Part shown: positions 13,795 to 42,563 of the stretch, one piece after another | How positions within the stretch are numbered: the stretch's first letter is position 1 | Layout: each line of letters begins with the position of its first letter | Assembly: GCF_004698125.1 (NCBI RefSeq) | Contig: NZ_ML214298.1 | Span: 62,001 to 126,000 of the forward strand | Length of the DNA stretch: 64,000 nucleotides | Direction: 5' to 3' | DNA from: Halosimplex halophilum | GTDB lineage: Archaea > Halobacteriota > Halobacteria > Halobacteriales > Haloarculaceae | Translations under genes and position numbers: made by a program | The notes under the pieces: model-generated | What the model was told of the DNA's origin: nothing | The model's database searches: none | Seen by the model: only the letters and a program-made list of their open reading frames with translations

Positions 13795-13797
13795 GGG

Positions 13798-15535: not shown

Positions 15536-16000
15536 TTACCCGTCGACGTCGACGGGGAGGCGGTCGTACTCGCAGACGGTGTCGAGGACGATGCTCGTTC
15601 GGGCCGAGCGCACCTCGGGGTGAGTGAGCACCGACTTGATCCGGGCGTTCAGGGCCTCCGTGTTCTCGAACTTGCCGACGGCGACCACGTCGTCGCTCCC
15701 GGTGACCTCGTAGACGCCGACCATGTCGCCGGCGCCGCGCAGGTCGGCGACGACCGTCTCCAGGCCGGCGCCGTCCACGTCCAGCCGGAACACCGCCGTC
15801 ACGTCGTAGCCGAAGGCGCCGTAGTCGACCTCGGGCTGGAACCCCTCGATGACGCCGTCCTCCTCGAGGCGCTGGAGCCGTTTGGTCGCGGTGGCGGTGG
15901 CGACCTCCGCCCGCTCGGCGAGCTCGCTCGCGCTGGCGCGCCCGCTGTCCAGCAGCGCGTCGACGATCCGCCGGTCGGTGTCGTCGATGTCCGCCGACAT
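15536..16000 (-). CDS. Lrp/AsnC-family regulator of the amt2 module
   Basis: This 154-residue Lrp/AsnC regulator is paralogous to the one at 12864-13322. It has the same helix-turn-helix (DRRIVDALLDSGRASASELA) and RAM domain (TAVFRLDVDGAG, VYEVTGSDDVVAVGKFENTE). It starts six bases after glnK2 and closes the amt2-glnK2-lrp2 module. The C-terminus (SIVLDTVCEYDRLPVDVDG) differs from the paralogue, which may give a different effector. It probably responds to nitrogen or amino-acid supply. Confidence 0.85.
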   Translation of the reverse strand: MSADIDDTDRRIVDALLDSGRASASELAERAEVATATATKRLQRLEEDGVIEGFQPEVDYGAFGYDVTAVFRLDVDGAGLETVVADLRGAGDMVGVYEVTGSDDVVAVGKFENTEALNARIKSVLTHPEVRSARTSIVLDTVCEYDRLPVDVDG

Positions 16001-16006
16001 CGAATC

Positions 16007-16360
16007 TCAGACGGCCTCCGGGCCCGAGTCGCCGGTCCGGACCTGGACGGCGTCCTCGACGGGGAGGACGAAGATCTTGCCGTCGCCGGGCTCGCCCGTC
16101 TGGGCGGCGTCGGCGATGGCGTCGACCACGTCCCGGGCGGGGATCTCGGAGACGACGCACTCGATCTTGACTTTCTGGTGGAGGTCGACGACGTACTCCT
16201 CGCCGCGCCACTGGCCGGTCTTGGCCGGCTGCGAGCCGCGACCGGAGACGTTCGTGACGGTGAGCGAGGGGGCGCCCGCCTCCGCGAGCGCCTGTTTCAC
16301 GTCGCCGAGCCTGTCCGGGCGGACCACGGCGACGACCATCTTGATCCCGTCGTCAGTCAT
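16007..16360 (-). CDS. glnK: PII nitrogen regulatory protein, GlnK-type
   Basis: This 117-residue PII protein of canonical length starts [20 protein letters not shown]. The T-loop ([17 protein letters not shown]) again has Trp instead of the uridylylated Tyr, so covalent modification of the bacterial kind is not expected. The C-terminal [19 protein letters not shown] completes the nucleotide-binding site. The start overlaps the end of amt2 by eight bases, indicating translational coupling with its target channel. Family knowledge: GlnK trimers plug Amt channels when nitrogen is plentiful. Confidence 0.92.
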
Positions 16361-17774
16361 CGGAGACACCTCCCTGGGCGCCGCCGTCCGTGCGGAGTTC
16401 GGAGCCACCGTCCGCGCTCACGGCGGGGCTGTCGCGGCTGCCGCCGGCGGTGAACTCGGGGTAGACCGAGACGCCGTGTTCGCTCTCGTCGAGGCCGGCC
16501 TCCTCCTCCTCGTCGGAGACGCGGAGGCCGAAGAGGGCGTCGGCGACCTTGAACGCGACGGCGCTGGCGAGGACGGTCCAGACCGCGATGACGAGGCAGC
16601 CGGCGACCTGCATGGTCAGCTGGTTCACGCCGAGGAACGTGTAGCCGCCGGTGGCGGTGACGCCGAAGACCGGGATGAGGACGGTCCCGATGGCGCCTGC
16701 GCTCCCGTGGACCGCGAAGACGCCGCAGACGTCGTCGATCTTCAGCGAATCGACGACCCAGCGGTAGGTCGGCAGGACGAGTGCGCCCGCGAGACCGCCG
16801 AGGACGACGCCGCCCCACCAGGTGACGTGGGGGACGGCGCCGGTGACGGCGACCAGCCCGGCCAGCAGGCCGTTGGCGGCCCACAGCGGGTCGGGCTTGC
16901 CCTGCCACGCCGAGGAGACGACCATGGCCGCGACGCCGCCCGCGCCCATGCCAAGCGTCGTGTTCACGACGACCTGGCCGAGCGCGGCGCCCATGAACGT
17001 GACACCGCCGTCGCTCGCCGAGAGCACGGTCGCCTGGGTGCCGACGTTGAAGCCGTACCAGCCGAACGCGAGGAACAGCGTGCCCAGCACCGCCAGCAGC
17101 ATCGAGTGGCCGGGAATGGGCTGGCTGTTCCCGCTCGAATCGTAGCGGCCGGCGCGGGGACCGACCATCTTCGCGCCCACGAGCCCGGCGAGGCCGCCGA
17201 CCATGTGGACGACCGTCGCGCCGGCGAAGTCGAGGTACCCGACGCCGATGGCCTGCCCGAGGAAGCCGTCCGCCGAGAGCAGGCCGCCGGCCCACGTCAG
17301 TCCGGTCACGACCGGGTAGATGACGGCGGTCATCGCCGCGGCGATGAAGACGTACGCCGAGAAGTTCATCCGCTCGGCGACCGCGCCGGAGACGATGGTC
17401 GCGGCGGTCATCGCGAAGACCGCGCCGAAGAACCACCCGATGTACTGGGTCGGGTCGTTGACGTGGCCCCACGCGCCCCCGAGGTCGAACGCCGTCCCGG
17501 GGGCCGTCAGCTGCCCGACGAGGGCGCTGACGGCCGCACCGACGGCGAAGAACACGAGCACGCCGAGCATCCAGTCGGTCATGTTCTTCATCAGGACGTT
17601 CCCGACGTTCTTCGCGCGGACCTGCCCGCTCTCCAGCAGCGCGAAGCCCGGCTGCATGAAGAAGATCAGGAAACAGACCACGAGGATCCAGACGTTGTTC
17701 ACCCCGTCGGCGACCGCGCCCGGGTCCAGCTGGAGCACCGCGTCGGCCGCCGGCGCCAGCGGCGCCGCCGCCAT
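16353..17774 (-). CDS. amt: Ammonium transporter 2
   Basis: This 473-residue Amt channel is paralogous to amt1. It shares [50 protein letters not shown] and the second histidine segment [17 protein letters not shown]. The ATG at 17774 gives a short Ala/Pro-rich N-terminus before helix one; the longer frame would add 36 charged residues. The cytoplasmic C-terminal tail ([20 protein letters not shown]) is the GlnK contact region and is also conserved in amt1. It is the first gene of the amt2-glnK2-lrp2 module. Confidence 0.93.
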
Positions 17775-17882
17775 CAGCGGCTCACCTCCGCCCCGCCGGG
17801 GCGACCCGATATATCTTGATGATCGCGTACCGTTCCACCCGTTCTCACTACGTTCGTAGTCTCCATCTCGGTTGAGGGTCAT

Positions 17883-26971: not shown

Positions 26972-27322
26972 ATGAGCAGCCAGGCCCCCGACGAGGCGAC
27001 TGAACCGCTCGCGACGCGGGTGGTGCTGTCGTTCCCGGCCGACATCGGGAAGCACGGCCGTACCCGGATCCGTTCGGACTACTACAGGAACTACCTCACC
27101 AAGGTCCACGACGCGGCCGCCGAGGGCGACGAGTGGGACGAGTTCACCGACGTTGGCTGTTGCGGCAGCCAGATGGACGTGCCGCTCGTGGTCGAGGCAG
27201 TCGAGGGCGGCTCGCGGGTCGACACGGACACCGAGATCGAGTACACCGAGCGCGAGGCCTGCGGGATCAACCAGGGCTGGTCGGTCCAGCACGACGAACC
27301 CGAGGCGCTGGACGAGGGGTAA
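26972..27322 (+). CDS. Small conserved-looking cysteine protein
   Basis: This 116-residue cytoplasmic protein has the notable motif VGCCGSQMDVPL in the middle and EREACGINQGW near the end. The conserved-looking cysteines could bind metal or serve redox roles. The N-terminal half (RVVLSFPADIGKHGRTRIRSDYYRNYLTK) looks like an RNA- or nucleotide-binding alpha/beta segment but matches no family I know. The start ATG gives an acidic N-terminus typical of haloarchaea. Confidence 0.6.
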   Translation: MSSQAPDEATEPLATRVVLSFPADIGKHGRTRIRSDYYRNYLTKVHDAAAEGDEWDEFTDVGCCGSQMDVPLVVEAVEGGSRVDTDTEIEYTEREACGINQGWSVQHDEPEALDEG

Positions 27323-27388
27323 CGCGGCGGTGCTCCGAGCGGGCCGCTGACACGGAAGGTCGCCGCCACCGCCGGCAGCGACGCAGGG

Positions 27389-30300
27389 TCACCCCTCTTC
27401 GAGGATGTGGAGCCGCCCGTCGGTGTCCGCGACGAGCAACCGGTCGCCGACAACGGTCGGGCTGTGGTTACTACCCGCTGCATCGTCCCACATGTCCAGC
27501 AGGTCACCGTCGGGAGTGTATCCAAAGACACTGCCGTTCTCGCCTGCGACGTAGAGACGACCCTCAGATGTCAACGCCGGCGCCGAGTTGATATTGCAGT
27601 TGAGGTTCCTCGACCAGAGGGCGTCGAGAGTCGCGGAGAAACAGTATATTTTTCCACTTTCCTTACATATTGCCGCTTTGTCTGAAGAGACGACAGGGGG
27701 AGCCGCGTACCGTCCGTTTACTTCCCAGGGCCCATCTCGGACCTTTTCCCGGCTCGGGTCACTGCGGACGACGTGGAACTTGTCACGATTAGTGACAACG
27801 TAGATCAGGTCGTTGGTGACTACCGGGTCCCAGTCGAGTGCGTAGTTTACCCCCCAGTCGCGATCTATCTTCGACCCGTTGGCAGCCCCGAAAGCAATGA
27901 GAACTCGGTCCGAGAGATAGACGACGTCGTCGTCGACGACTGGACGCCCCGGCACCATGTCCGAGACGGTAATCTTGAACCGGTCGCGATCCAGTCCGTC
28001 TCCGACGGCGTACAACCGCTCGTCACTGGTGAAGTAGACGACATTCTCACTGTGGACCGGTGTCGAATTGACTATGTCGGGAAGTCGATACTCGCCCCGT
28101 CGTTCCTTCGTCTGAAGGTCGAACGCGGCCACCCTCGGGTCCCGTTCTCCCGATCTACCAACCGGGACGTAGACCCTTCCATCGTGGAGGGACGGAGGGG
28201 CAGTGATCGAACCGAGATCCATCGACCAGTGTTCCTCGTGGTTCCGTAGGTCGTATACGTAGAGGGTCCCGGATTTCGCGGCGATGCAGACGTATTCGCC
28301 GTTGGTGGTCGGGGAACCGATGAACCCCGAACTGCAGAGGTCCGCACGGCGGCGTCGTTTGAAATTCTTCGGCCCGCGGTCGGGCGTCGATCCCGTGTTC
28401 TGCGCGTCGTACCGGACCATCGGTGCGGATCCGGACGATCCCGAGGGTGCAGGCGTGGTCGACTTGTCGGTCACTCCACCCGATGCCGTCGCGGCGACCG
28501 ACCCGTCGGATGTCGACTCCGTCCGCTGGTTCGACTGTGACTGCGAGGACCGCTCCTCGGTTACGGGGTCCAGTTCCGGTGCCGGCTCCGGGGCGTTCCC
28601 CGAAGCGTTCGAACCGGCCGGTTTCCCGCCGGAATCTCCCCGGGACTCGGTCCGTGACCGCTTGTCGTTCGGAGACCGGTTCGATTCGGAGGTATTCGAG
28701 TCGGCACGAGTGCTCCGCTGGCCCCGCTGCTGGTTCCTGTTCCGGAGGATCTGCTTGTACTTCTGGCGCTGGGGTTTGTCGAACACGTCCCCGGAGGACT
28801 CGTCGTCGAGTTTCTTCGCGGCTTCCGCGGCGATCTCCCGAATTTCCGCGTCCTCGTCGTCGATGTACTTCCAGATCTGTTCCCGGGAGGGCGTCTCTCG
28901 CGTCTGGTGGGTGGTGTTCGCGGACAGCCGCTTGACCTCCTCGAGGCGAACATCGCGGTCGGCCTGCTGGCCATTCGAGCCGCCGGTCGACGACGGGGGC
29001 GTAAAGAGGCGAAGCGGAAGCCGCAGGACCGAGCCCGAAGGCCAGAGTCGGCCGGCGAGAGTCCCGACCGCGTAGGCGGCGTGGCCGAGGACCCACAGCG
29101 CGGTGACCACCACTAGCCCGTCGACGACCGGATTCCAGTTGTCGACGACTAGCTCCGTGATCGCCGACGCGGTGACGAACAGGACGGCCGCGACGGCGGT
29201 ACCGCCGACGACTCCCAGAAGCGTCGCCGAGTGCTTCGAGACCCAGGACCGGTCCGTCGTCGACACTTCGACCGGCTGGTCGGCGAACCCGTCCGAGAGC
29301 TGCCCGACGAGTTCGTCGGTCGACCGGGCCAGCGACTCCAGGGACTCGGCGTCGGCGACCACCTGTTCGGCCCGGCGGTCCAGTTCCGTCGGGAACGGCG
29401 ACCGGCTGAGCAGCGACCGGAGCCGCGAGAACGCGCGCCGAATGGGGACTCTCACCCGCCGTCTGAGCACGACGGTAACCAGCAGGAACGCCAGCAGCGG
29501 GCCGACGAGTTGCCAGTTCGCCGCCGTGAACTCGACGGTGGGGACGACCGGCGGGAGGTGGGGCGGGAACGTGTACGTGATCGAGTCTGTCGCGAGCGAC
29601 GCCAGCTCGGTGAACGAACCGCGCCACGCGGCGTAGCCGAGACCGGCGACGAGCGCGACGGCGAACGCGAGCAGCCCCGTCTTGGCGACGCCCTCCCAGT
29701 TCATGCCCGGATCGACCTTCTGGCGGACGGTCACCGGGAACGCCTCGTCGAACCCCTGACGCTCGAGGGCCGCCACGACCCCGGCAGCCGATCGGTGCCC
29801 GGACAGTTTCTCGCCGGCCGCCGAGGCGAGCGCGTCGACCGACTCCGACAGCTCGTCCGTCGCATCCGCCACCTTCCAGTCCCGCCTGGCGTCCGCCGCC
29901 TGTCCGGTCAGCCGGATGCCGTCGAACTGGTCGTTGGGCTCGATGTAGATGTCCGCGTCGGTGTCGAACTGCGACGGCGGCTGCCGACAGATCGCGTAGC
30001 TCCGGTCGTCCCCGTAGCGGTCGTAGAAGTATCGGAACAGACGGACCGCCGTCAGCTCGTCGGGGGCGGCGAAGCTGAGGGTCCCGCAGTGGTCGAGCAG
30101 GTCGTCGGCCAGGTCGTCGGATATCGGTGGGCCGGTCGGATCCGCTGACGTGAGATTCTCGAAGACGACGTGACCGCCGCTAGCGCCGTCCCTGACGACC
30201 CAGTCCCGGCTCTCGACCGCCTCGCGTACTCGCCGCTGAAACTCGTCGAGGAAGTCCGGCGACCCGTCCGTCTCGTAGGTGGCGATGAACTGTTCCGGAT

Positions 30301-30472
30301 CCGACCGACGGACGCCGACGAACGACCAGACGTACCCCGCCGACGGGTCGTACTCCAGCAGGAGTCCAGCGTTGAAATCATCGACCACAGATGTATCGAT
30401 CTGCTCGTCCGTCCGCGGACCGCTCGTGTAGACGATCTCGCCGGTGGGACCGGGGTGGAGTTTCAGCGTCAT
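27389..30472 (-). CDS. Membrane-anchored PQQ-type beta-propeller protein of the tubulin-like locus
   Basis: This 1027-residue protein has four parts. An N-terminal soluble domain covers about residues 1-235 and is not recognised. About four membrane helices lie between 265 and 480 in two pairs around a basic cytoplasmic stretch. A disordered Ser/Thr/Asn/Gln-rich linker runs from about 490 to 690. The C-terminal PQQ/YVTN-type beta-propeller (about 695-1027) has repeats such as GTLYVYDLRNHEEHWSMDLG. The gene starts four bases after the membrane GTPase stop, so the pair forms an operon. The propeller region has lower GC than its neighbours. It may scaffold or sense for the GTPase/tubulin system; this is inferred from linkage. 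Confidence 0.75.
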   Translation of the reverse strand: MTLKLHPGPTGEIVYTSGPRTDEQIDTSVVDDFNAGLLLEYDPSAGYVWSFVGVRRSDPEQFIATYETDGSPDFLDEFQRRVREAVESRDWVVRDGASGGHVVFENLTSADPTGPPISDDLADDLLDHCGTLSFAAPDELTAVRLFRYFYDRYGDDRSYAICRQPPSQFDTDADIYIEPNDQFDGIRLTGQAADARRDWKVADATDELSESVDALASAAGEKLSGHRSAAGVVAALERQGFDEAFPVTVRQKVDPGMNWEGVAKTGLLAFAVALVAGLGYAAWRGSFTELASLATDSITYTFPPHLPPVVPTVEFTAANWQLVGPLLAFLLVTVVLRRRVRVPIRRAFSRLRSLLSRSPFPTELDRRAEQVVADAESLESLARSTDELVGQLSDGFADQPVEVSTTDRSWVSKHSATLLGVVGGTAVAAVLFVTASAITELVVDNWNPVVDGLVVVTALWVLGHAAYAVGTLAGRLWPSGSVLRLPLRLFTPPSSTGGSNGQQADRDVRLEEVKRLSANTTHQTRETPSREQIWKYIDDEDAEIREIAAEAAKKLDDESSGDVFDKPQRQKYKQILRNRNQQRGQRSTRADSNTSESNRSPNDKRSRTESRGDSGGKPAGSNASGNAPEPAPELDPVTEERSSQSQSNQRTESTSDGSVAATASGGVTDKSTTPAPSGSSGSAPMVRYDAQNTGSTPDRGPKNFKRRRRADLCSSGFIGSPTTNGEYVCIAAKSGTLYVYDLRNHEEHWSMDLGSITAPPSLHDGRVYVPVGRSGERDPRVAAFDLQTKERRGEYRLPDIVNSTPVHSENVVYFTSDERLYAVGDGLDRDRFKITVSDMVPGRPVVDDDVVYLSDRVLIAFGAANGSKIDRDWGVNYALDWDPVVTNDLIYVVTNRDKFHVVRSDPSREKVRDGPWEVNGRYAAPPVVSSDKAAICKESGKIYCFSATLDALWSRNLNCNINSAPALTSEGRLYVAGENGSVFGYTPDGDLLDMWDDAAGSNHSPTVVGDRLLVADTDGRLHILEEG

Positions 30473-30476
30473 CGGG

Positions 30477-32363
30477 TCACCCGTGGATCCGTCTGAGGAG
30501 CTGGATCGACCCCTGGAAGACCGTCTTCGGGACGTTTCGCGTCTTGATCAGCGACTTGTCTTCGTTGTCTCGCCGGTCCGGGTCGATGAAGTACCACGTC
30601 GGATAGACGGCCCCCTCGTTCTCCGTGTGGGCGATCAGGTCGTTGACGACGTCCGATTCCGCTCCGAGCACCTCCTGGCTGACGTGAGTCGCGAAGCCGT
30701 CGTACTCCTCCTCGACCGGGATCGGGAAGCTCTGGTCCTCCTCGACGCTCATCTCCTGGTAGTCCTTCCAGACGTAGTCCGCCTTCGTCGCGACCACGAA
30801 ACACTGCTTGTCGCTGTAGGCGCGAGCCAAGTCGCGGTAGTACTCCAGATACCCCTTCTCCTCGCTCCGGTTGCCTGGTGGGTACTCCGGATACATCCGG
30901 CCACCGACTTCCCAGTGGACCCAGCCCGCCTCCGCGCCGGATGGGATACACTCGATCGTTTGGCGTGCCTCATCGCCGAGGTCCGAAACGGCGACGACGT
31001 TCGGGGCTTGTTCGTCGCGTCCCGTGCTGAGGAGGTCGCCCCGGGAACCGATGTACTCGAGGTCGAAGTACTCCCGTTGATTTCCCCGCTCCAGAACCGG
31101 TTGCAGGAAGTCGTCCATCGGGATGGTAAACAGGAGCGTGTCGGACTCCTCGATCTGTGCTTCGACTCGGTCGGCGAGGTCGCTGCCCAGGGACCGCCGA
31201 CCGGTTCCGCCGTCGGTCACTGCCTCGTCCGTCTCCGCCTCGACCTCGCTTTCGTCGTCGTCCTCGTCCGAATCGGGTCGACGAGACGGGCCGGGCTCGG
31301 TGACTGACTCGCTGCGGTCGGCCCTGTCGGTCTCCTCGAGGTCTTCGTCACCGAGGATGTGCTGACAGATGTCGTTCAGCCGCTCACCGGGGTAGTCGTA
31401 CGTCTCGAAATGGAACTGTTTGGGGAACAACCCCGGCGCGTACTTGTACCCGAACTGCAATATGTCGTCGTCTCCCCTCTCGTTGGGGTCGGGCCACCGG
31501 CCGTCTTTGATACTGTCGCGCGCCTGGTTGATCGGGGTCGCTCCCCGGTCTTCGTTCATCGCCGCGCTGTCGATGACATCCTCGACGGCGGCCTTCATGC
31601 CGCCGAACGCGGCCGTCTTTCCGCTCCGTGCCGGGCCCATCATCATCACCTTCTGGTTGGCCTGGAAGTTCGCGAACTGCTTGAGCGAGAAGAGCAACAC
31701 GCCGATGACGGCGATGTCCTGCAGGATCGCCCCGAGGTCGAACCCGTAGAAGTACACCTGCCGGGCGACGAATCCGCTGTCGACGACTTGGATGGGGCTC
31801 CGGTAGCGGAGGTGCGCTTCCACGAACACGACGGCCAGCGCGGCCGCGACCGCCCACCAGACGCGGTTGACGGCGTCGTCGAGGACGACTCGGTTGCCCT
31901 CGAACAGGTCGGTCCACTCCTCGCTGCGCATCCCGCCGTACCACAGTCCGGCGGCCACGGAGACGACGAGACCGAGGAAGGCGAGTACGTTCGCCTGGGA
32001 GGCGACCATATCGAGGAAGACGCCGTTGACGGCGAGAAAGACCGCCGCGGGGAAGAACCCGAACAGGAAGACGAGCACGCCCTTCCCGCGACGGTACGAG
32101 TCGAAGAGGAACGTCCCGAACAGCCCGACGAAAAAGCCCGCGAGCACGACGTAGACGACGACCGCGGGAACGCCGAACTCGGGAAAGACACCGGCGATGA
32201 TCCCCTTCGTGACACCACCTTTGTTCCACCAGCGGATGAACATCCTCGACACGAACACGGCGGAAGCGAGGAAAGCGAGGAAGTAGCCGATGAGTTCCAC
32301 CCAGTCCCATAACACGAACACGCTCCTATCTCGCAAGGAAGAGACCCGATCTTGGACGCCCAT
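30477..32363 (-). CDS. Six-TM membrane GTPase of the tubulin-like locus
   Basis: This 628-residue protein has six hydrophobic segments between about residues 17 and 230. A cytoplasmic P-loop domain follows with GPARSGKT (about 243-250, G1), DYPG (about 323-326, G3) and TKAD (about 526-529, G4), which marks a TRAFAC-type GTPase. An acidic insert (about 345-390) splits the domain. The start at 32363 was chosen because a TATA-like TAATTA stands about 27 bases upstream, suggesting a leaderless mRNA; longer frames add 53 unstructured residues. It is divergent from the tubulin-like gene. Function unknown. Confidence 0.75.
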   Translation of the reverse strand: MGVQDRVSSLRDRSVFVLWDWVELIGYFLAFLASAVFVSRMFIRWWNKGGVTKGIIAGVFPEFGVPAVVVYVVLAGFFVGLFGTFLFDSYRRGKGVLVFLFGFFPAAVFLAVNGVFLDMVASQANVLAFLGLVVSVAAGLWYGGMRSEEWTDLFEGNRVVLDDAVNRVWWAVAAALAVVFVEAHLRYRSPIQVVDSGFVARQVYFYGFDLGAILQDIAVIGVLLFSLKQFANFQANQKVMMMGPARSGKTAAFGGMKAAVEDVIDSAAMNEDRGATPINQARDSIKDGRWPDPNERGDDDILQFGYKYAPGLFPKQFHFETYDYPGERLNDICQHILGDEDLEETDRADRSESVTEPGPSRRPDSDEDDDESEVEAETDEAVTDGGTGRRSLGSDLADRVEAQIEESDTLLFTIPMDDFLQPVLERGNQREYFDLEYIGSRGDLLSTGRDEQAPNVVAVSDLGDEARQTIECIPSGAEAGWVHWEVGGRMYPEYPPGNRSEEKGYLEYYRDLARAYSDKQCFVVATKADYVWKDYQEMSVEEDQSFPIPVEEEYDGFATHVSQEVLGAESDVVNDLIAHTENEGAVYPTWYFIDPDRRDNEDKSLIKTRNVPKTVFQGSIQLLRRIHG

Positions 32364-32365
32364 AG

Positions 32366-32379
32366 GACCATTAATGGTC
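32366..32379. promoter_or_regulatory. 14-bp palindrome at the membrane GTPase start
   Basis: GACCATTAATGGTC is a perfect palindrome ending three bases before the GTPase start codon. It lies between a TATA-like TAATTA (32389-32394) and the ATG, where a bound protein would block transcription. It is a candidate operator of the 282-bp divergent promoter region. Confidence 0.4.
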
Positions 32380-32614
32380 GATTCCGTGTAATTACGGTTA
32401 CGATTACAGTCCATGTTGCCGACGGATCGGGTGATCTCACCGGATCCTGAACAGTCGTCGACTCCGGACAGTCCGGGCGTCCGGAGGGATCGAACGGCGA
32501 GACCCGTGCGATCCGGGAACATGAGGTGTCTCCCCGACCGGCGGGCTGTACCGAACGTTCGTCCGGGGAACGGCGCCGCCGTCTGTCCGCAATCGGTGAG
32601 TACACCACAATTGA

Positions 32615-32622
32615 TTTATAAG
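32615..32622 (+). promoter_or_regulatory. TATA box of the tubulin-like gene
   Basis: TTTATAAG lies in an AT-rich island centred about 27 bases before the ATG at 32646, the spacing expected for a leaderless haloarchaeal transcript. No Shine-Dalgarno sequence precedes the start, which fits. Confidence 0.6.
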
Positions 32623-32645
32623 ATAATTACAAGTGTTAGTGCCAT

Positions 32646-35600
32646 ATGGCGGCACAAGAAGCCGACAGTCGGGTGACGGTCCCGGACACGATCATCGGGA
32701 TCGGGAACGCCGGGAAACAGGTGGTCTACACGCTCCTCGAACAGGACTGGGTGCTCGAGGACGCGCTGAAGCCGCGAGAGGCCGACAGCAACCCGAGTAT
32801 CGATCCCGTGGTGATCGATACGGTAACCGGGGCCGAGCAGGACGACGACGTCGAACGTATCAGCTCGATAAACGACGAGATCGAGAAGAAACTCGGCGAG
32901 TACGGAAACAACGCGACGACGGAACTCGAATACATCAACCCGATCGAGGAGACCGACCAGCGGTACACGAGCGCGCACGGCCTGACGTTCCCGGGGACGG
33001 TGGCCGACATCGCGACCGAGGCCAACCTCAAGGCGTGGTGGTTCGACCAGAACCCGGAGCTGCTCGACGAGAACGAGAACTACAGCGAGGGCGTCATCAG
33101 GCGGCGGGCGCTGAGCAAGGCGCTGTACCACGCGAGCCAGGCGGGGACGGGGACGGACCCGCTCTCGAGGGTCGTCAACAAGGCGGGGAACTCGAACAAG
33201 GTGTACATCGTCGTCGGCCTCGGCGGCGGAACGGGATCGGGGATGTTCCTCGATCTCGCGAAGCGCATCAACGAGACCCACGGCGCCACGGACGTCGAGC
33301 TGTTCGGCGTGCTCCCGGGGCCGCGCGAGGAGAACGACACGCGGGCCAACGCCCACGCGGCGCTCTCGGAGATCGAGTACGTGAGCCTCACCCAGAGCGA
33401 CCCGTTCCAGAACGTCGTCTTGGTCCCCTACGGGCCGTCGAGCGACGACGACCTGTTCGAGGAGGCGGTGGCCTACGCGATGATCGCTCACCGAAATCTC
33501 GAATCGAACCACCGAAACAAGCTCAACAACAACAACGACAACCGCGGCCCGGCGAGTTACGCGCCGTTCACGGTGTGTTCCCCTCGGATCCTCCGGTACA
33601 ACGCGAAGGGCGTCACCGAGGCCAAGGAGGCCGTCGAGGAGTTCCGCAAGGAGAAACAGGCCGCCCTCGAGACGGAACTGGACCTGTACGACGCCGCCAT
33701 CGAGGCTATCGTCGAGAACTTCGACACCGCCGGCGAACAGCTCGAGGCCGGTCTCGCTCAGGACGGGCACGCGACACACGACCTCTACAACCTCGACGGC
33801 GAGGAGGCGCGCCGGGCGCGGGACCGATTGGACGAGTTCGAGCAGTTGCTCGGAGACCAGGCGTTCGACGACCTCGACTACCAGGCGCACGAGGACCTCC
33901 TGTCCGACCTCCGGGACGCGATCGACAACGCCGAGAACGGGCTCACCGACGATATGTCCGCCCGGGAACAGCGCGAGGAAGTCGTCGACACGGCGGCGAG
34001 CAGCGTCGACCTGCTCGACCCGGTCGAGGAGCTGTACGCCGGCGAGGAGAAAGACCGGGAGCTCGCGAGAGTGCTCCGCGACGAGCTCCGGGCGATCAAG
34101 CGGCGCACGGAGATCCTGAAGGCCCTCCACGTGATCGAGTCCGAGCCGATACGCGAAGGGTTCCGGATCGCGCTCGACGCGGATCAGGGGTTCGCCGCCG
34201 CGGGCGACCTCAACAGCGAGTGGCAGAGCGTCGTCGAGGACATCGACCGGCTCGAGGAGGAGATGGCGGACCTGGAGGACCTACGCGAGGCGCTGGACGG
34301 TGAGCGCGACGAAGCGATCGAGGGCTGGCGGGCGTCCGTCGAGGACGACCTCTCGTATCTGATCGACGTCGACACGCGTCGCCAGCGCCTCGAAGACCGA
34401 CTGTCGGACCTGAACGACAGCATCATCGACGCCACGAACACGATCGACAGCGCGCACAACCCCAAACAGGTCCCGGACGACCCGCTCGACTTTTCCGGGT
34501 TCGACGCGATCAATCAGGACTTCGAGGCGCTCGGCCTCGAGAACAGAACGGTCGACGAGGACACCATCACCGCGTCCCTGCAGGGGCTCGCGGAGATGAA
34601 ACGCGTCTGGCTGATGGCCGACGAGGAGGGCGGCTTCCTCGACGCGCTCGGTGACATCTTCGGCCCCGACGCCGAGGAAGAGCTCGAAGACAGGTTCTAC
34701 GCGGCCCGCCAGAACGTCGACCAGAACCTGTTCCGTGCTCCCTCGGAGTTCGACTCGCTGTCGTTCGACTGCGAGTTCCTCGACGAGGACAACATCAAGA
34801 ACCGGGCCAGCGCGCTCACCAAGGAACGGCGCCAGCGTGTCGACGACGTCGTCAACGAACTCGACCGGGCAGTCAAACGGCCGAACTTCGACCTCGAAGG
34901 ACTGGTGGCGGCCGATTCGTCGGTCGTCGAGTCGGTGGAGGTCCCCGGGGTCGGCCGGTCCGAGGACTTCTACGCCGACCAGCTCCGCAAGGAGCTCTCC
35001 GACGACCTCTCCGAGGCCCACCCCGCCTCCATCCTCGACGAGCTCTGCCGGGACGGCGGGCGGCCCGACGTGAGCTCGAGCGGGATCGTCTTCCAGGCGT
35101 TCGACACCTCGTTCGTCGCGCCCGTCGAAACGGAGATCGAGCGCCGGACGGAACGGCTGGAGACGCTGGAGAGCGAGGAACAGCAGTACCAGCGCGTCCG
35201 GGGTCTCATCCGCAACGAGGGGTCGGACTTCACCGAGAACGGGACCGGCCCCGACGACATCGAGATGTCGTTCGACGGCGCTGACGAGGAGTCCTACGCG
35301 TACCACCAGATACTCGACCCGGAGGAGAAAGGACGGCTTCTCACGTCGGACGACATCGTCGAAGCGAACCTCTACGAGAGGGAGAACAAAAAGATCAAGA
35401 CCAACCTGGTCGAGCAGGCCGAGGAGGTCGGGAACCTCGGCGGGTCGCTCCCGCTAAATATCGGACAGATCGAAAACAAAGGTGAGACGGGTGAGGCGTC
35501 ACCGGACGACGACGGGGTGTACATGAACCATCGGGTCTACCCCGTGTACCTGAGCCGTGCGCTCGACAGAGACGAGAGCGGCGACCCGTACTTCGAGGAT

Positions 35601-36026
35601 GTCCACGAGAGCCTCGTCAAAAACGGCGTCTACGTCGAGGGGAACAGAGAGGGGTACCACCCCAGCAAGGTCGGCAACGCCAATCCGTGGGACTTCGCGA
35701 TGGTCCCGTTCGTCGGCGGCGTCTTCCTCGACAACCTGGGCCTCGTCTCCCAGCCGGGTAACGGCTACCTGAACACCTACGAGACGGAGCGGTCGGACAA
35801 GCGCGACAACATCCGCATCAGGCACACGCACGCGCTCGACGGACTGGACGACTACCACGACTGGAGCGCCAGCGGCCGCGGCGGGTACGTCGTCCGCGAC
35901 GAGGTCGTGAACATGGGGACGCCGGAACACGACATGTTCGTCACCGAGGACGAGGCGACGGTCATCGACGAACTGATCGCGCGACACCGGTTCACCGAGT
36001 TCGACAGCACCGTGGACCTGGAGTGA
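32646..36026 (+). CDS. Giant tubulin/FtsZ-superfamily protein (Tubulin_2-like)
   Basis: This 1126-residue protein's N-terminal 320 residues form a tubulin/FtsZ-type GTPase. A glycine loop GIGNAGK lies at 18-24 and the tubulin signature GLGGGTGSG at 191-199, followed by ELFGVLPGP and an AVAYAMIAHRNLES segment. The rest is long helical or coiled-coil sequence (about 330-850) and a mixed C-terminal domain ending in a conserved-looking GGVFLDNLGLVSQPGNGYLN region. It is three times the size of FtsZ or CetZ and lacks their typical C-terminal layout, so it is neither. It is followed by an overlapping membrane-protein gene and diverges from the membrane GTPase. Probably forms GTP-dependent filaments at the membrane. 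Confidence 0.8.
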   Translation: MAAQEADSRVTVPDTIIGIGNAGKQVVYTLLEQDWVLEDALKPREADSNPSIDPVVIDTVTGAEQDDDVERISSINDEIEKKLGEYGNNATTELEYINPIEETDQRYTSAHGLTFPGTVADIATEANLKAWWFDQNPELLDENENYSEGVIRRRALSKALYHASQAGTGTDPLSRVVNKAGNSNKVYIVVGLGGGTGSGMFLDLAKRINETHGATDVELFGVLPGPREENDTRANAHAALSEIEYVSLTQSDPFQNVVLVPYGPSSDDDLFEEAVAYAMIAHRNLESNHRNKLNNNNDNRGPASYAPFTVCSPRILRYNAKGVTEAKEAVEEFRKEKQAALETELDLYDAAIEAIVENFDTAGEQLEAGLAQDGHATHDLYNLDGEEARRARDRLDEFEQLLGDQAFDDLDYQAHEDLLSDLRDAIDNAENGLTDDMSAREQREEVVDTAASSVDLLDPVEELYAGEEKDRELARVLRDELRAIKRRTEILKALHVIESEPIREGFRIALDADQGFAAAGDLNSEWQSVVEDIDRLEEEMADLEDLREALDGERDEAIEGWRASVEDDLSYLIDVDTRRQRLEDRLSDLNDSIIDATNTIDSAHNPKQVPDDPLDFSGFDAINQDFEALGLENRTVDEDTITASLQGLAEMKRVWLMADEEGGFLDALGDIFGPDAEEELEDRFYAARQNVDQNLFRAPSEFDSLSFDCEFLDEDNIKNRASALTKERRQRVDDVVNELDRAVKRPNFDLEGLVAADSSVVESVEVPGVGRSEDFYADQLRKELSDDLSEAHPASILDELCRDGGRPDVSSSGIVFQAFDTSFVAPVETEIERRTERLETLESEEQQYQRVRGLIRNEGSDFTENGTGPDDIEMSFDGADEESYAYHQILDPEEKGRLLTSDDIVEANLYERENKKIKTNLVEQAEEVGNLGGSLPLNIGQIENKGETGEASPDDDGVYMNHRVYPVYLSRALDRDESGDPYFEDVHESLVKNGVYVEGNREGYHPSKVGNANPWDFAMVPFVGGVFLDNLGLVSQPGNGYLNTYETERSDKRDNIRIRHTHALDGLDDYHDWSASGRGGYVVRDEVVNMGTPEHDMFVTEDEATVIDELIARHRFTEFDSTVDLE

Positions 36027-37483
36027 CCAGCGAGGACATGGGAGACACAGCAGAGACGTCGCTCCGGCGACGGTGGGACGGCATCGACGCGGTGTTGCTC
36101 GTCGCCTCGGCGCTCCTCGTCGGGGCCGCGAGCGCGGTCCTGGCGCGGATGCTGGTCGACGCCTGGGACAGCGGCGGCATCGTCTACGGTGCGGTCACCG
36201 GAACCCTCGGCGCGCTGGGCCTCTCGAAGGCCGCGGCTGTCGCGACGGCCGTCGCGTTCGTCGTCACGCTGTTCCTGTTTTTCCTGCTGGACTCGTCGAA
36301 GCAGATGCAGGCGCTGACGCTCGTGCCGCTGTTCCCCGTCTTCTACGTCGCGGTGACGGGGGAGGGCAGGTGGTACGCGATCCAGTGGGGGGCCCAGGTT
36401 CCGTTTCTCGCGGTCGGTCTGCTCGTCGGGTCGGCGGTCGCACTCGCTGGACGGAACGTCTCCGGCAACGTCAGGGAGTTCCCCGCGGCGGCGAACGGGC
36501 TCCACGCGGTGCTCGCGGGCGTCGCGGCGATCGGGTTTCTCGAGTACCACCTGGCGTCGGGCGCGGCGATCGTCGAGGCACGGTACCTGTGGCGCGACCT
36601 CGGAGCGGTCCTGGTCGTGGCCGTCCTCCTCGGCTCGTTCACGCGGTACAGGAACCCGGTCACGATGGTCATCGTCTCGGCTGACGGCGACGGGATCACG
36701 GAGGCCAACGTCACCGGCGGGCTGTACCAGACGGTGCGACAGATCTACGGCGACGCCGCCGTGACGACCGAGAGCCACGAGTGGCTGCTGCGGGCGTCTA
36801 ACGTCAGTTCCTGGGACGACCTGACGGATGTCGTGGACACGGGCGGCCGGAGCGGTCGTGAGGACGGTACCAGGCGCGGGTTCCAGTTCCGCCCGGTCGG
36901 CTGGTTCAGTCAGACCGTCGCCGTCGGGGCCCGGGCACTCCCCGCGACCCGGTTCACGGAGTACCACTTCAACGCGATCGACGACGCGGTTACCGCTCGC
37001 AACCGAACGAGAAATCGCTTCGTCGACCGGACGAAACGATACCTGCGGCTGGCCGTTCCGAAGGCGACTCCTGACGAAACCGGTACCGGTCGCCGGATAC
37101 ACAACGCGGTCCTCGGTGCGGATGTCGTGGTGTGTGCGGTCCACTACCCGGACATCGCGGCGAACGACAGTGCCGTCGAGACGTTCGCCCGGCTGTACCG
37201 GAGCTTCGGTGACGACTCCCGGACACGGCTCCTCTTCGTCGTGACCGGCGGGAGCACGGCCATGGACGAGTACACGGCCGAGGAGGGCGGCCCCCAGGTG
37301 CCGCTCTACGACACCGACTTCAGGTCGTTCGTCCGGGACGCCCTCCTGGACGGGTCCGACGCGTGGAGGGGAAGGCAGCCCGACGCCGAGGACATCGTGG
37401 TCGTCGACCGCGAAGCGAGCGACGACGCGGAGACCGGGTCACGGCTCAAAGGGTCCGAGCGAGTCCTCGAAACGCTGTTCTGA
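36023..37483 (+). CDS. Membrane protein resembling the locus GTPase but without nucleotide motifs
   Basis: This 486-residue protein has six to seven hydrophobic segments (about residues 22-205) followed by a soluble domain. The last helix region (FLEYHLASGAAI, RDLGAVLVVAVLLGSFTRYRNPVTMVIVS) parallels the membrane GTPase at 30477-32363. Where that protein has GPARSGKT this one has SADGDGIT, and the G4-like strand reads FVVTGGSTAMD. It therefore looks like a pseudo-GTPase paralogue. The start is GTG, overlapping the tubulin-like stop (GTGA); ATG 36038 is an alternative. The overlap indicates coupled translation with the tubulin-like protein. Confidence 0.7.
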   Translation: MTSEDMGDTAETSLRRRWDGIDAVLLVASALLVGAASAVLARMLVDAWDSGGIVYGAVTGTLGALGLSKAAAVATAVAFVVTLFLFFLLDSSKQMQALTLVPLFPVFYVAVTGEGRWYAIQWGAQVPFLAVGLLVGSAVALAGRNVSGNVREFPAAANGLHAVLAGVAAIGFLEYHLASGAAIVEARYLWRDLGAVLVVAVLLGSFTRYRNPVTMVIVSADGDGITEANVTGGLYQTVRQIYGDAAVTTESHEWLLRASNVSSWDDLTDVVDTGGRSGREDGTRRGFQFRPVGWFSQTVAVGARALPATRFTEYHFNAIDDAVTARNRTRNRFVDRTKRYLRLAVPKATPDETGTGRRIHNAVLGADVVVCAVHYPDIAANDSAVETFARLYRSFGDDSRTRLLFVVTGGSTAMDEYTAEEGGPQVPLYDTDFRSFVRDALLDGSDAWRGRQPDAEDIVVVDREASDDAETGSRLKGSERVLETLF

Positions 37484-37589
37484 GCGGTCCGCGGTCGGCC
37501 GACGGGGCAGAGGGACGGGCCCCCTCCGGCCGGCGCTCCACTCGCTGCAGTCCGAACGGCTCAAATACCTGCCGGACCGACGGAGGACC

Positions 37590-39641
37590 GTGTCACAGCA
37601 GGTCGGCGAGGTCGGGACGCTGTTCCTCCACGAGTACGGCGACGACGTGCGCGTCGCCGTCGTGCGAGAGGGAGAGCGGCGCCTCCACGCGATACTGGAA
37701 CTCAAGGAGACCGGCGCCGGGCCGCGACCCGCCCGGCTCCGCGTGAAACAGGGCACCGACGAGGAGCCCCGGCCGCCGGATCTCTTCGTCGAACTCGCCC
37801 GCTCGGCCTCCCGCATCCGCATCTCCGAGCAGACTTCCCCGGAGGTTCGCCGCCGGCTGCAGGAACTGCTCGACGCCTACCAGCTGGAGGCGAAGGCCGT
37901 CCGCACCTGCCGCTACTGCGCCAGCGAGGGCCACTACTCGCCCATCACCTCGGAGACGGCCATCGAGGCCGACGGGGAGTACATCTGCCCCGACTGCGCG
38001 AGGGCGGAACTCGACCGCGAACTCGCCTACAAGGGCGAGATCACCAGCGGCGCCCGCGACCGCCTCTACGACCTTCTCACCGAGGTCCAGGACCTCGACC
38101 GCGTGTCCAATCTCCTGAAAGGCGACCTCGACCCCGACCTGACGAAGTTCGACGAGATCTCCGCGACCGTCGACGAGGTCGATCCTGTACCTGTGGACTC
38201 GCTGGATCTCCACCCGGGCATTCAGGACCACCTGGAGGGGCGGTTCGACACGCTCCTGCCGGTCCAGAGCCTCGCCGTCGAGAACGGCGTCACGGAGGGC
38301 CGCGACCAGCTGGTCGTCAGCGCGACCGCGACCGGGAAGACGCTCATCGGCGAGATGGCCGGCCTCGACCGCGTCCTGAACGGCAAGGGCAAGATGCTCT
38401 TCCTCGTCCCGCTGGTCGCGCTCGCCAACCAGAAACACGAGTCCTTCGAGGAGCGCTACGGCGACATGGTCGACGTGTCCCTGCGCGTGGGCGCCAGCCG
38501 CATCAACGACGGCGGCGGCCGCTTCGACCCCGGCGCCGACGTGATCGTCGGCACCTACGAGGGCATCGACCACGCGCTGCGGACGGGCAAGGACCTGGGC
38601 AACATCGGGACCGTGGTCATCGACGAGGTCCACACCCTCGGCGAGGACGAGCGGGGTCACCGTCTCGACGGCCTGATCTCCCGGCTGAAACACTACTGCG
38701 GGGAGCTGTCGGACAACAAGAGCACCGACGGGACCCAGTGGATCTACCTCTCGGCGACCGTCGGCAACCCCGGCGATCTGGCCGAGCAGCTGCGCGCCCA
38801 GCTCATCGAGTTCGAGGAGCGGCCCGTCCCCATCGAACGCCACGTCACCTTCGCCGACGGCCGCGAGAAGATGCGGATCGAGAACAAGCTCGTCAGGCGG
38901 GCGTTCGACACGAAGTCGTCGAAGGGCTACCGCGGCCAGACGATCATCTTCACCAACTCCCGGCGGCGCTGTCACGAAATATCTCGCAAACTGGAGTACG
39001 ATTCGGCCCCCTACCACGCCGGGCTGGACCACCGCCGGCGCAAGAAGGTCGAGCGACAGTTCGCCGACCAGGACCTGGCGGCCGTGGTCACGACCGCCGC
39101 GCTCGCGGCGGGCGTCGACTTCCCGGCCTCGCAGGTCGTCTTCGACTCGCTGGCGATGGGCATCGAGTGGCTCACCGTCCAGGAGTTCCACCAGATGCTC
39201 GGTCGCGCCGGCCGTCCGGATTACCACGACAAGGGGACCGTCTACGTCCTCGTCGAACCCGACGGGTCGTATCACAACAGCCAGGAGATGAGCGAGGACG
39301 AGGTGGCGTTCAAGCTCCTGAAGGGGGAGATGGACCCCGTGATCACCCGCTACGACGAGGGCGCGGCCGTCGAGGAGACGCTCGCCAACGTCACCGTCGG
39401 CGGGAAACACGCCAAGCGGCTCAACGACCGGATGATCGGCGAGGTGCCGACGAAACACGCGGTTGGCAAGCTGCTGGAGTACGAGTTCATCGACGGGCTG
39501 GAACCGACGCCGATGGGCCGCGCCGTGACCTCCCACTTCCTCTCGCCCGACGACGCGTTCCTGCTGCTCGACGGGATCCGGAAGGGCGACGACCCCTACG
39601 AGATCGTCGCCACGATGGAACTGCGCGACGACGAGCGGTAG
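37590..39641 (+). CDS. Ski2-like DEAD/DEAH-box helicase with zinc finger
   Basis: This 683-residue superfamily-2 helicase starts with GTG behind a GGAGG sequence. The N-terminus (1-105) is unrecognised. A zinc finger follows (CRYCASEGH and CPDC, about 109-135). The helicase core has ATATGKT (Walker A), DEVH (motif II), SATVGNP (motif III) and QMLGRAGRPDY (motif VI), as in Hel308/Ski2-like archaeal helicases. It lacks the C-terminal winged-helix and ratchet length of Hel308. Probable role in DNA or RNA unwinding during repair or turnover. Confidence 0.85.
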   Translation: MSQQVGEVGTLFLHEYGDDVRVAVVREGERRLHAILELKETGAGPRPARLRVKQGTDEEPRPPDLFVELARSASRIRISEQTSPEVRRRLQELLDAYQLEAKAVRTCRYCASEGHYSPITSETAIEADGEYICPDCARAELDRELAYKGEITSGARDRLYDLLTEVQDLDRVSNLLKGDLDPDLTKFDEISATVDEVDPVPVDSLDLHPGIQDHLEGRFDTLLPVQSLAVENGVTEGRDQLVVSATATGKTLIGEMAGLDRVLNGKGKMLFLVPLVALANQKHESFEERYGDMVDVSLRVGASRINDGGGRFDPGADVIVGTYEGIDHALRTGKDLGNIGTVVIDEVHTLGEDERGHRLDGLISRLKHYCGELSDNKSTDGTQWIYLSATVGNPGDLAEQLRAQLIEFEERPVPIERHVTFADGREKMRIENKLVRRAFDTKSSKGYRGQTIIFTNSRRRCHEISRKLEYDSAPYHAGLDHRRRKKVERQFADQDLAAVVTTAALAAGVDFPASQVVFDSLAMGIEWLTVQEFHQMLGRAGRPDYHDKGTVYVLVEPDGSYHNSQEMSEDEVAFKLLKGEMDPVITRYDEGAAVEETLANVTVGGKHAKRLNDRMIGEVPTKHAVGKLLEYEFIDGLEPTPMGRAVTSHFLSPDDAFLLLDGIRKGDDPYEIVATMELRDDER

Positions 39642-39749
39642 CGAGCGCGGTGGGGCCGTCGACCGAGGCGGTAGGCCGACAGTACTCCGTGGTAGCTCCC
39701 GACACGCGGCGCCCACAGACTTATCCTCGTCGACGGCCTGGAACAGGCA

Positions 39750-40619
39750 ATGACTGCCGGAACCGGGCCGGACCCGACCCGCACGATCACCCTGGACGCC
39801 CACGTCCACACGGACGCCTCCTACGACTGCTCGGCGGCGCCCGAGCGGGTCGTCGACGCGGCGCTGTCGGCCGGCCTCGACGCCGTCGCCGTCACGGACC
39901 ACGACACAGTCGCAGGTGTCGGACCCACCGTGGAGGCCGCCGCGGGGACGGATCTCCTCGTCGTGCCGGGCGTCGAGGTCTCGACCGCCGACGGGCACCT
40001 CCTCGCACTCGGGGTCGACCGGGCGCCCGCGCCCGACCGGCCGCTCGCCGAAACGGTCGCGGCGGTCCGGGCGGCCGGCGGCGTCGCGGTCGTCCCCCAT
40101 CCCTTCCAGGTCAGCCGCCACGGCGTCCGCCAGTCCGTCCTCGCCGACTGCGATGTCGACGGGGTCGAGACGCGCAACGCCGTCGCGGTCACCGGGTACG
40201 GGAACCGTCGGGCCCGCCGGTTCGCGGCCGCCGAGGGATACCCGACGGTCGGGGGCAGCGACGCCCACCGACCCGGCCTGGTCGGCCGGGCGTTCACCAG
40301 CGTCACGCTCCCCGCGGGCGTCGACTGGGCGACGATGACCGTCGCGGACGTGCTGGCGGGGATCCGCGCGGGCACCGCGACCGCGCAGGGGACCGTCACG
40401 ACGCCCGTCGAGTTCGCGGCGACCTACGCCTGGCACGCCCGCGACACGGCCGCCACGGCCGTCGACTCCGCCCGGTCCGCCGCGGGGACCGGGCGGTCGG
40501 CCGCCGGCTCCCACCCCGCGGTCGGCGCCGGCGCGGTGCTCGGCTCGGCCCTCCTGGTGGGGTCGCGAACGGGACGGGCCGGCCGTCTCCCGCGGCGGAT
40601 CGCCGGGCGAGTACGGTAG
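39750..40619 (+). CDS. PHP-domain metal-dependent phosphoesterase
   Basis: This 289-residue enzyme of the PHP superfamily (polymerase-and-histidinol-phosphatase) has metal ligands in AHVHTDASYDC, VTDHDTVAG, GVEVSTADGHLLALGV, VPHPFQ and GGSDAHRP. About 60 C-terminal residues form an Ala/Gly/Arg-rich tail (SARSAAGTGRSAAGSHP...) with one weak hydrophobic stretch. It probably hydrolyses a phosphate ester such as a nucleotide or sugar phosphate. It is transcribed after the helicase with its own TATA-like sequence (ACTTATCC, 39718-39725). Confidence 0.85.
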   Translation: MTAGTGPDPTRTITLDAHVHTDASYDCSAAPERVVDAALSAGLDAVAVTDHDTVAGVGPTVEAAAGTDLLVVPGVEVSTADGHLLALGVDRAPAPDRPLAETVAAVRAAGGVAVVPHPFQVSRHGVRQSVLADCDVDGVETRNAVAVTGYGNRRARRFAAAEGYPTVGGSDAHRPGLVGRAFTSVTLPAGVDWATMTVADVLAGIRAGTATAQGTVTTPVEFAATYAWHARDTAATAVDSARSAAGTGRSAAGSHPAVGAGAVLGSALLVGSRTGRAGRLPRRIAGRVR

Positions 40620-40688
40620 CGAGACCGGCCGAGCCCGGGAGCCGAGCGATGAGTGGCCTTTTTCCGGCATCCCTGTGACTGTGCGGAC

Positions 40689-42563
40689 GTGCCACTCGGG
40701 ATCACCGCGGGCGCGGCGTTCGTCTTCGCCGTCATCCTCGTCGCGCTGGTCCTGTTCGCCACCGAGCCGGTGCCCGTCGACATCACGGCTATCGGCGTCC
40801 TCGTCGCGCTGCTGGTCGTCGAGCCGTTGACGGCGGCCGCCGCCGACCTCGGACTGCTCGCCGAAGGTCTGGTCGTCCTCTCGGACCCCGAGGCGGGGCT
40901 GTCGGCCACCGACAACGGCCTCTCGGGGTTCGCCAGTTCGGCGACGCTGACCGTGCTGGCGATGTTCGTCCTCTCGGACGGCGTCCAGCGAACCGGCGTC
41001 GTCCAGATCCTCGGGTCGAAGATCGCCGGGCTCACCCGCGACAGCGAGTCCCGACAGCTCGGCGCGGTCATCGGCCTCGTCAGCCCCATCTCCGGGTTCA
41101 TCAACAACACCGCCGCCGTCGCCATCCTCCTGCCGATGGTCACCGACCTCGCCCACGAGGGCGAGACCTCCCCCTCGAAGCTGCTCATCCCGCTCTCCTA
41201 CGCCTCGATGTTCGGCGGGACGCTGACGCTGATCGGCACCTCGACGAACATCCTCGCCTCCGAGCTGTCGGGGCGGCTCGTCGGCCGGACGTTCACGATG
41301 TTCGAGTTCACGCAACTGGGCGCCGTCCTCTCGGTCGTCGGCGCGGCGTACCTCCTGACGGTCGGCCGGCGGCTGACCCCCGAGCGCATCCCGGTCGCCC
41401 GCGACCTCACCGAGGAGTTCGAGATGGGCGAGTACCTCACCGAGGTGGTCGTCCGCGAGGACTCGCCGCTGGTCGGCGCGACCGTCCGCGACGCGCTCCG
41501 GGACACCGACTTCGACATCGACTTCGTCCAGCTGATACGGAACGGCCGCGCGTTCACCGAGCCGCTCGACCCCAAGACGATCCGGGCCGGCGACGTGTTC
41601 GCCGTGCGGACCGACCGCGGGACGCTCGTCGAACTGTCCGACGCCGAGGGGCTGGACCTGCTCCCCGAGGTCGAAGTCGACGAGGACGAACTCGAGACCC
41701 CCAACGAGCGCGACAACCTCGTCGAGGTCGTGGTCGCGCCGGGGTCGAACCTCGTCGGCGAGACGCTCCGGACGGCGAACTTCCGCCAGCGCTACGACGC
41801 GACGGTGCTGGCCCTGCGGCGCGGCCGGGAGCTGTTCCGCCAGCGCATGGACGACGTGCGGCTCCGCGTCGGCGACACCCTCCTGATCCAGGGGCCCCCC
41901 GACAGCATCGAGCGGCTCAACGTCAACCGCGATTTCATCGTCGCACAGACGATCGACCGCCCGGACTACCGCCGCTCGAAGATCCCCGTCGCCGTCGGGA
42001 TCGTCCTCGGCGTCGTCGGCCTGGCCGCGGTCGACCTCCTCCCCATCGTCGTCGCCGCGCTGGCCGGCGCGCTCCTGATGGTCCTCACGGGCTGTCTCAA
42101 ACCCACCGAGATCTACGACGCCGTCCAGTGGGACGTGATCTTCCTGCTCGCCGGCGTCATCCCGCTGGGCATCGCCCTGGAGAACACCGGCGGCGCCGAT
42201 CTGATCGCCGACCTGGTCGTCCAGTCGGCGACCATGCTCCCGCCGCTGGGCGTGCTCGCCGTGATGTACCTCGTCACCGCGCTGCTCACGAACGTCATCA
42301 GCAACAACGCCAGCGTCGTCCTCATGATCCCCGTCGCCGTCGAGGCCGCCCGCCAGCTCGGCGTGAACACCTTCTCGTTCATCCTCGCCGTCACCTTCGC
42401 CGCCTCGACGGCCTTTATGACTCCCGTCGGCTACCAGACCAACCTCTTCGTCTACGGCCCCGGCGGCTACCGCTTCTCCGACTACCTCAGAGTTGGCACG
42501 CCCCTGCAACTGATCTTCGCCGCCGCCACGACTCTCGGGATCTACGCGTTCTGGGGGCTGTGA
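40689..42563 (+). CDS. SLC13-type anion permease with RCK_C domains
   Basis: This 624-residue membrane transporter of the SLC13/ArsB-like (DASS) superfamily has an N-terminal helical bundle with SPISGFINNTAAVAILLPM and a C-terminal bundle with NVISNNASVVLMIPVAVEAA; both carry the family SNT/NNTA-type loop. Between them (about residues 235-420) are two TrkA-C/RCK_C regulatory domains (EMGEYLTEVVVREDSPLVG; DNLVEVVVAPGSNLVG). It probably imports an anion such as sulfate or a dicarboxylate using sodium. The GTG at 40689 was taken as start; GTG at 40653 would add 12 Cys-containing residues. Confidence 0.85.
   Translation: MPLGITAGAAFVFAVILVALVLFATEPVPVDITAIGVLVALLVVEPLTAAAADLGLLAEGLVVLSDPEAGLSATDNGLSGFASSATLTVLAMFVLSDGVQRTGVVQILGSKIAGLTRDSESRQLGAVIGLVSPISGFINNTAAVAILLPMVTDLAHEGETSPSKLLIPLSYASMFGGTLTLIGTSTNILASELSGRLVGRTFTMFEFTQLGAVLSVVGAAYLLTVGRRLTPERIPVARDLTEEFEMGEYLTEVVVREDSPLVGATVRDALRDTDFDIDFVQLIRNGRAFTEPLDPKTIRAGDVFAVRTDRGTLVELSDAEGLDLLPEVEVDEDELETPNERDNLVEVVVAPGSNLVGETLRTANFRQRYDATVLALRRGRELFRQRMDDVRLRVGDTLLIQGPPDSIERLNVNRDFIVAQTIDRPDYRRSKIPVAVGIVLGVVGLAAVDLLPIVVAALAGALLMVLTGCLKPTEIYDAVQWDVIFLLAGVIPLGIALENTGGADLIADLVVQSATMLPPLGVLAVMYLVTALLTNVISNNASVVLMIPVAVEAARQLGVNTFSFILAVTFAASTAFMTPVGYQTNLFVYGPGGYRFSDYLRVGTPLQLIFAAATTLGIYAFWGL

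Follow-up and report, generated by a model that had tools for sequence, protein, structure and literature searches.

A recurrent haloarchaeal gene cassette combining an FtsZl1-family tubulin-like protein, an active and a degenerate membrane GTPase, and a variable-tail adaptor

Introduction

Within a 64,000-nucleotide stretch of the Halosimplex halophilum genome (contig NZ_ML214298.1, positions 62,001 to 126,000; hereafter the window), four adjacent genes encode a large tubulin-like protein, two paralogous membrane partners of which only one retains the motifs of a GTPase, and a membrane adaptor ending in a beta-propeller. We propose, with moderate confidence, that together they are a mobile system in which a tubulin-like assembly is tethered to the membrane and controlled by GTP, likely serving in conflict or stress. 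Both the tubulin family and its association with GTPases have been described before. The literature consulted contained no account of the pairing of an active with a dead GTPase, of the adaptor family, of the link to a propeller or of an empty site.

Few branches of the tubulin superfamily are as poorly understood as the family concerned, FtsZl1. According to Makarova and Koonin (2010; PMC2875224), its founder is the haloarchaeal protein Huta_2051, of 1051 residues arranged as FtsZ-like, coiled-coil and C-terminal regions; archaeal members have membrane-bound GTPases encoded nearby, and the T6-H7 elements could not be located by those authors. A later phylogeny left out the Tubulin_2 group as too divergent (PMC9871819), and no experimental study of FtsZl1 proteins was found in the literature searched. 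The cassette offers four defined parts within a genetic boundary, two GTPases of which one is active and one dead, and sister species whose empty site makes them natural knock-outs; since the archaea concerned belong to a group with working laboratory genetics, the role of FtsZl1 proteins becomes directly testable.

Results

Inspection of the ORFs in the window located four large genes in two divergent pairs, with the positions, the gap and the overlap that a prior sequence-only reading had described. On the minus strand, the gene for the adaptor, T3, with its beta-propeller (27389-30472; 1027 aa) is separated by 4 bp from that of the class A membrane GTPase (30477-32522; 681 aa as called, with six transmembrane segments and a G domain). 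On the plus strand, the gene of the FtsZl1/Tubulin_2 protein (32646-36026; 1126 aa) overlaps by 4 bp that of the class B membrane pseudo-GTPase (36023-37483; 486 aa, with five to six transmembrane segments and a degenerate G domain). The divergent intergenic region contains TTTATAA (32615..32621, plus strand, by reading of the sequence), a putative archaeal TATA-like element lying 25-31 bp upstream of the tubulin start codon; a sigma-70-type scan, which is not meant for archaea, returned no promoter. A further ORF, 37593-42509 on the minus strand, was discarded as spurious, being antisense to a helicase gene and others.

On sequence criteria, the 1126-residue product is a member of the FtsZl1 (Pfam Tubulin_2) family. 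It matches PF13809 with an E-value of 2.7e-12 (47.1 bits against a cut-off of 27), a profile search of solved structures retrieves FtsZ (E 6.6e-6) as well as TubZ, and the best Foldseek matches of its AF2 model in the PDB are TubZ, tubulin and CetZ. These sources agree on the tubulin/FtsZ superfamily placement proposed earlier, the N-terminal domain scoring as tubulin and as no unrelated Rossmann fold. Since the model has a mean pLDDT of 62.6, only part of it is usable, the N-terminal domain included. This GTPase domain (residues ~13-318) is followed by a long helical middle and a C-terminal domain. It carries the T4 GTP-binding loop GLGGGTGSG (33216..33242, plus strand; residues 191-199, read directly), which is unchanged in all 14 aligned tubulin relatives, an alignment in which two Halosimplex species share only ~25% identity. 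The longest helix of the middle region in the AF2 secondary structure (34194..34451, plus strand; residues 517-602, 86 residues) is heptad-like, with LIVMA at 58% of a/d positions versus 34% overall; residues 870-1126 are modelled at low confidence with some strands.

The protein thus passes the Pfam cut-off, has a GGGTG(S/T)G loop and a coiled-coil-like middle (AF2 helix and heptad bias), and is accompanied by a P-loop GTPase that is membrane-bound, as in archaeal family members. Its size and coiled coil, which had been singled out as unusual, are not odd, because both define the FtsZl1 family: PMC2875224 describes the same FtsZ-like N-terminus with GGGTGSG and coiled-coil middle in proteins of ~1050-1130 aa, together with membrane-bound P-loop GTPase neighbours in archaea and kinases in some haloarchaeal loci. 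The window differs from those loci in that no vWA gene was seen: that gene, typical of most FtsZl1 loci, is absent from the four products by Pfam and was not seen by reading in the flanking ORFs, part of which were also profile-searched. The dead/active GTPase pair, the variable-tail adaptor family and the propeller likewise do not appear in the text of that report that was consulted. TubZ, CetZ and FtsZ share with the window protein the tubulin fold and the T4 loop, but are of ~300-480 aa and lack the long helical middle and dedicated membrane GTPases.

Other Tubulin_2 contexts were encountered. The same genome holds, on contig C3 (G000, 194600-214500; L039), genes for a CoxE-like vWA protein, a HEAT-repeat protein, an FtsZl1 protein, a MoxR-type ATPase and a membrane vWA protein; the FtsZl1 belongs to the same large group and likewise stands beside a membrane protein, whereas a MoxR-type AAA ATPase, two vWA proteins and a HEAT-repeat protein take the place of the GTPases. 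The vWA and HEAT genes of this locus (L039:2925-9225) recur at 89% and 77% identity in Halosimplex pelagicum (L064:14532-20846), adjoining the four-gene cassette there and, in the window genome, the FtsZl1 locus of MoxR type, which suggests a shared hotspot or shared partners. Elsewhere, three shorter Tubulin_2 proteins of 705-937 aa are encoded in a row (L056; G048:C1:80000-99900), with no GTPase of the cassette family found near them.

The two membrane partners are paralogues (HMM search, E 2.5e-107). Class A keeps every GTPase motif, namely the P-loop GPARSGKT (31614..31637, minus strand, by reading of the sequence), DYPGE and TKAD, whereas the corresponding positions of class B read SADGDGIT, ALPATR and TGGS, with P-loop, DxxGE and TKAD all lost. 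The product of 36023-37483 and the 30477-32522 GTPase are paralogues, the former degenerate and a pseudo-GTPase; the earlier view that both partners are GTPases holds for the latter and fails for the former. Because relatives of class A align from about residue 55, with homology beginning near M54, its true start is probably 32363 (codon 54), which makes 30477-32363 the likely gene and the 681-residue ORF, as called, too long at the 5' end.

A motif survey of 48 GTPases from related loci generalised this division. Class A proteins keep the P-loop G-x-x-x-x-GK[S/T], with the sole exception of one locus (L078; GPHSSGRR), and mostly keep DxxGE and (T/S)(K/M)xD, while class B proteins lack all three motifs. 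In each of the 11 haloarchaeal loci having an A+B pair, the class B gene immediately follows that of the tubulin. Class B forms a single clade (support 100/100), which persists after removal of the motif columns, so that one duplication followed by motif loss would explain class B. In the same 11 loci the distance matrices correlate (A-B, r 0.91; tubulin-B, 0.88; tubulin-A, 0.91), with mirror-tree p at most 6e-4 for raw distances uncorrected for the species tree, the A partner at one locus (L075) being taken from ~13 kb away (L088).

T3, the 'third subunit', is an adaptor family whose genes immediately follow that of the GTPase in many haloarchaea. The window protein combines a conserved N-terminal domain (29873..30472, minus strand; residues 1-200, by T3 family homology), which aligns with the T3 N-terminal domain in hhalign at Prob 93.2 and E 2.9e-7, with four predicted transmembrane segments (29054..29695, minus strand; residues 260-473, by hydropathy scan) and a PQQ-type beta-propeller (27401..28318, minus strand; residues 719-1024, by Pfam and Foldseek propeller matches). 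A PQQ_2 match (Pfam, E 1.9e-18) bears out the description of this product as a beta-propeller membrane protein, and from the four transmembrane segments the propeller is probably cytoplasmic. A longin/roadblock-like fold for the N-terminal domain, suggested by the order of strands and helices in the T3 model, is not claimed: pLDDT was ~70 and Foldseek gave propeller matches only.

The tail of the adaptor is variable. The propeller is fused to T3 in the window and is a gene of its own at three other loci (L059, L071, L072) and, weakly, at a fourth (L078). In Halobellus (L059) it directly follows T3 (PQQ_2, 3.7e-8); in two relatives (L071, L072) Pfam scores are weak, yet the proteins match that of Halobellus at 1e-229 or better. 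T3 of H. pelagicum (L042) has a GTPase-like C-terminus, and adaptors of the one-GTPase type have one transmembrane segment and secreted Ig-like domains. The occurrence of the propeller as a fused or a separate component across loci supports a functional link with the adaptor. A fused propeller in two further adaptors (L073/L074), discerned by eye in L073 only and without a significant match, was not counted. Separately, a putative lipoprotein with a PQQ-type propeller (L081:5270-6499; E 2.6e-11 to the window propeller) is encoded near a GTPase-adaptor pair for which no tubulin was found.

Such binding modules raise the alternative of envelope-stress or surface signalling, in which the surface would be sensed by the adaptor tail and the signal passed on through kinases and GTPases, with the tubulin serving as scaffold and not as filament. 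Propeller and Ig-like tails would suit it, kinase genes are found at the loci in H. pelagicum and one other genome (G323), and a role in membrane stress has been predicted for a DO-GTPase encoded in phage-shock-type operons (PMC11237479). At the window locus, however, no kinase was seen and the propeller is probably on the cytoplasmic side, and we regard this explanation as distinctly unlikely.

To describe recurrence, we interrogated 342 genomes of the order and scored the two leading tubulin candidates of each; contigs were scanned for homologues with an alignment as query, a single protein having given no match. The tubulin is patchily distributed, occurring in 36 of the 342 genomes, and a GTPase of the cassette family lies within 6 kb of 39 of the 44 tubulin hits, fragments included. 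The divergent four-gene layout recurs in H. pelagicum (L042/L064) and Halorutilus (L060), and in Halobellus (L059) the four genes are co-directional. This recurrence in other genera and the proximity of tubulin and GTPase, the genes being mostly together and not apart, support the earlier proposals that the four genes are one unit and that the tubulin-like protein is linked to the membrane. The divergent arrangement would allow two operons that are neighbours by accident, but the same partners across several genera, the mirrored distance matrices and the single presence/absence block described below speak against chance adjacency, which we consider highly improbable.

Two locus types were distinguished: type I, with the tubulin, one active GTPase and T3 (for example L043-L050), and type II, to which the window belongs, in which the tubulin goes with the pseudo-GTPase and the active GTPase with T3. 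Type II needs a single change on the tubulin tree, on a branch without support. Because active GTPase plus T3 also occurs where, among the best two candidates per genome, tubulin was not found (L081, L083, L084, L085, L089), the A-T3 and tubulin-B pairs look like two half-modules. At the locus of the nearest relative, the gene of a protein with an Mrr restriction-endonuclease domain and eight transmembrane segments (L078:3052-5019) overlaps the GTPase gene. HSP70, DnaJ and kinase genes neighbour some loci; these and Mrr each occur in one to three loci only. Also encoded at L078 (16899-18581) is a second protein, highly divergent, that has a zinc finger and, as recognised by eye, motifs like those of FtsZ.

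The cassette coincides with a presence/absence block of 10.2 kb (27316..37548), delimited by flanks that match two sister Halosimplex species (G090, G091). There the flanking genes are 85-91% identical to those of the window, and the matching flanks lie only 55-94 bp apart, with nothing else between them. This is most simply read as a clean insertion, although the sisters may instead have lost the block by deletion. A Tubulin_2 match is present in only two of eight Halosimplex genomes, and the module has a GC content of 0.63-0.69 versus 0.711 for the other window genes. No mobility gene was found at the window locus; no known defence gene was seen beside this copy, and a defence-library search gave no match of weight.

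Discussion

These distributions bear on whether the cassette is instead a non-immune machinery for membrane remodelling or for vesicles and the envelope, in which, under normal physiology, a tubulin filament anchored by the membrane GTPase pair would bend or partition the membrane. That role was predicted for the FtsZl1 family in 2010 (PMC2875224); every partner is a membrane protein, and adaptors of the one-GTPase type bear secreted Ig-like domains. A physiological machinery sits poorly with the absence of the cassette from ~90% of the order's genomes and most Halosimplex, with the clean empty sites, and with the fast-diverging, swappable adaptor tails, and we consider it rather unlikely.

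We find a conflict or stress role more likely than housekeeping, because of the patchy distribution, the clean presence/absence, the swappable tails and the fast-diverging core, and because of the Mrr-nuclease membrane protein at L078 and a likeness to DO-GTPase/GAP1-N2 tubulin systems, whose assignment to conflict is itself computational (Kaur et al., 2020; PMC7159879). A patchily spread, rapidly diverging cassette would also be consistent with an accessory envelope system of another kind. In common with those systems, the cassette and its relatives have paired transmembrane GTPases, a Walker B glutamate (DxxGE), a tubulin with a coiled coil, HSP70/DnaJ/kinase themes, and a third component downstream of the GTPase with variable fused domains. 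The glutamate is present as DYPGE or DYAGE in most class A copies, that of the window included, and paralogous GTPase copies, frequent in DO-GTPase systems, are seen as the A+B pair of 11 loci. The differences are that here the Pfam models stay below cut-off, no GAP1 and no FNIII component was identified, and one GTPase is dead. DO-GTPase2 is weakly matched by nine of 16 relatives (best E 0.0017, short of the cut-off; PF19993/PF19975), the window copies match neither model, and the adaptors scanned contain no GAP1 domain that Pfam recognises, remote homology to one being possible. Since the cut-off and GAP1 tests failed, membership was set aside and likeness alone is put forward: the cassette may work like DO-GTPase conflict systems and is not claimed as one.

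In the mechanism that we envisage for a conflict or stress role, the FtsZl1 protein would be the cytoplasmic polymer-forming or scaffold part, and the pseudo-GTPase encoded beside it a dedicated membrane anchor and non-catalytic partner. Active class A and the pseudo-GTPase might form an asymmetric dimer with class A as the switch; the adaptor N-terminal domain would bind the active GTPase, its variable tail, here the propeller, sensing or recruiting a target. Once the adaptor is triggered, most plausibly by an invader or envelope damage, the active GTPase would change state and the GTPase pair rearrange, upon which the tubulin would assemble or be released at the membrane, which would be closed off, deformed or disabled. 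A specifically immune purpose, in which co-evolved active and dead membrane GTPases gate a giant tubulin assembly under a swappable adaptor-sensor, is a tentative suggestion; were it true, archaea would possess, built on a tubulin, an equivalent of the oligomerising switches of innate immunity.

Two further gene groups in the window were recorded. Three genes at 360-2338, ~25 kb from the cassette, resemble oapA-oapB-oapC (arvABC), the small-GTPase operon required for extracellular vesicles in Haloferax (PMC10927574), an assignment made from sequence and that paper without a family search. At 12864-17882 lies a tandem pair of gene sets resembling ammonium-transporter, PII-like and Lrp-like regulator genes.
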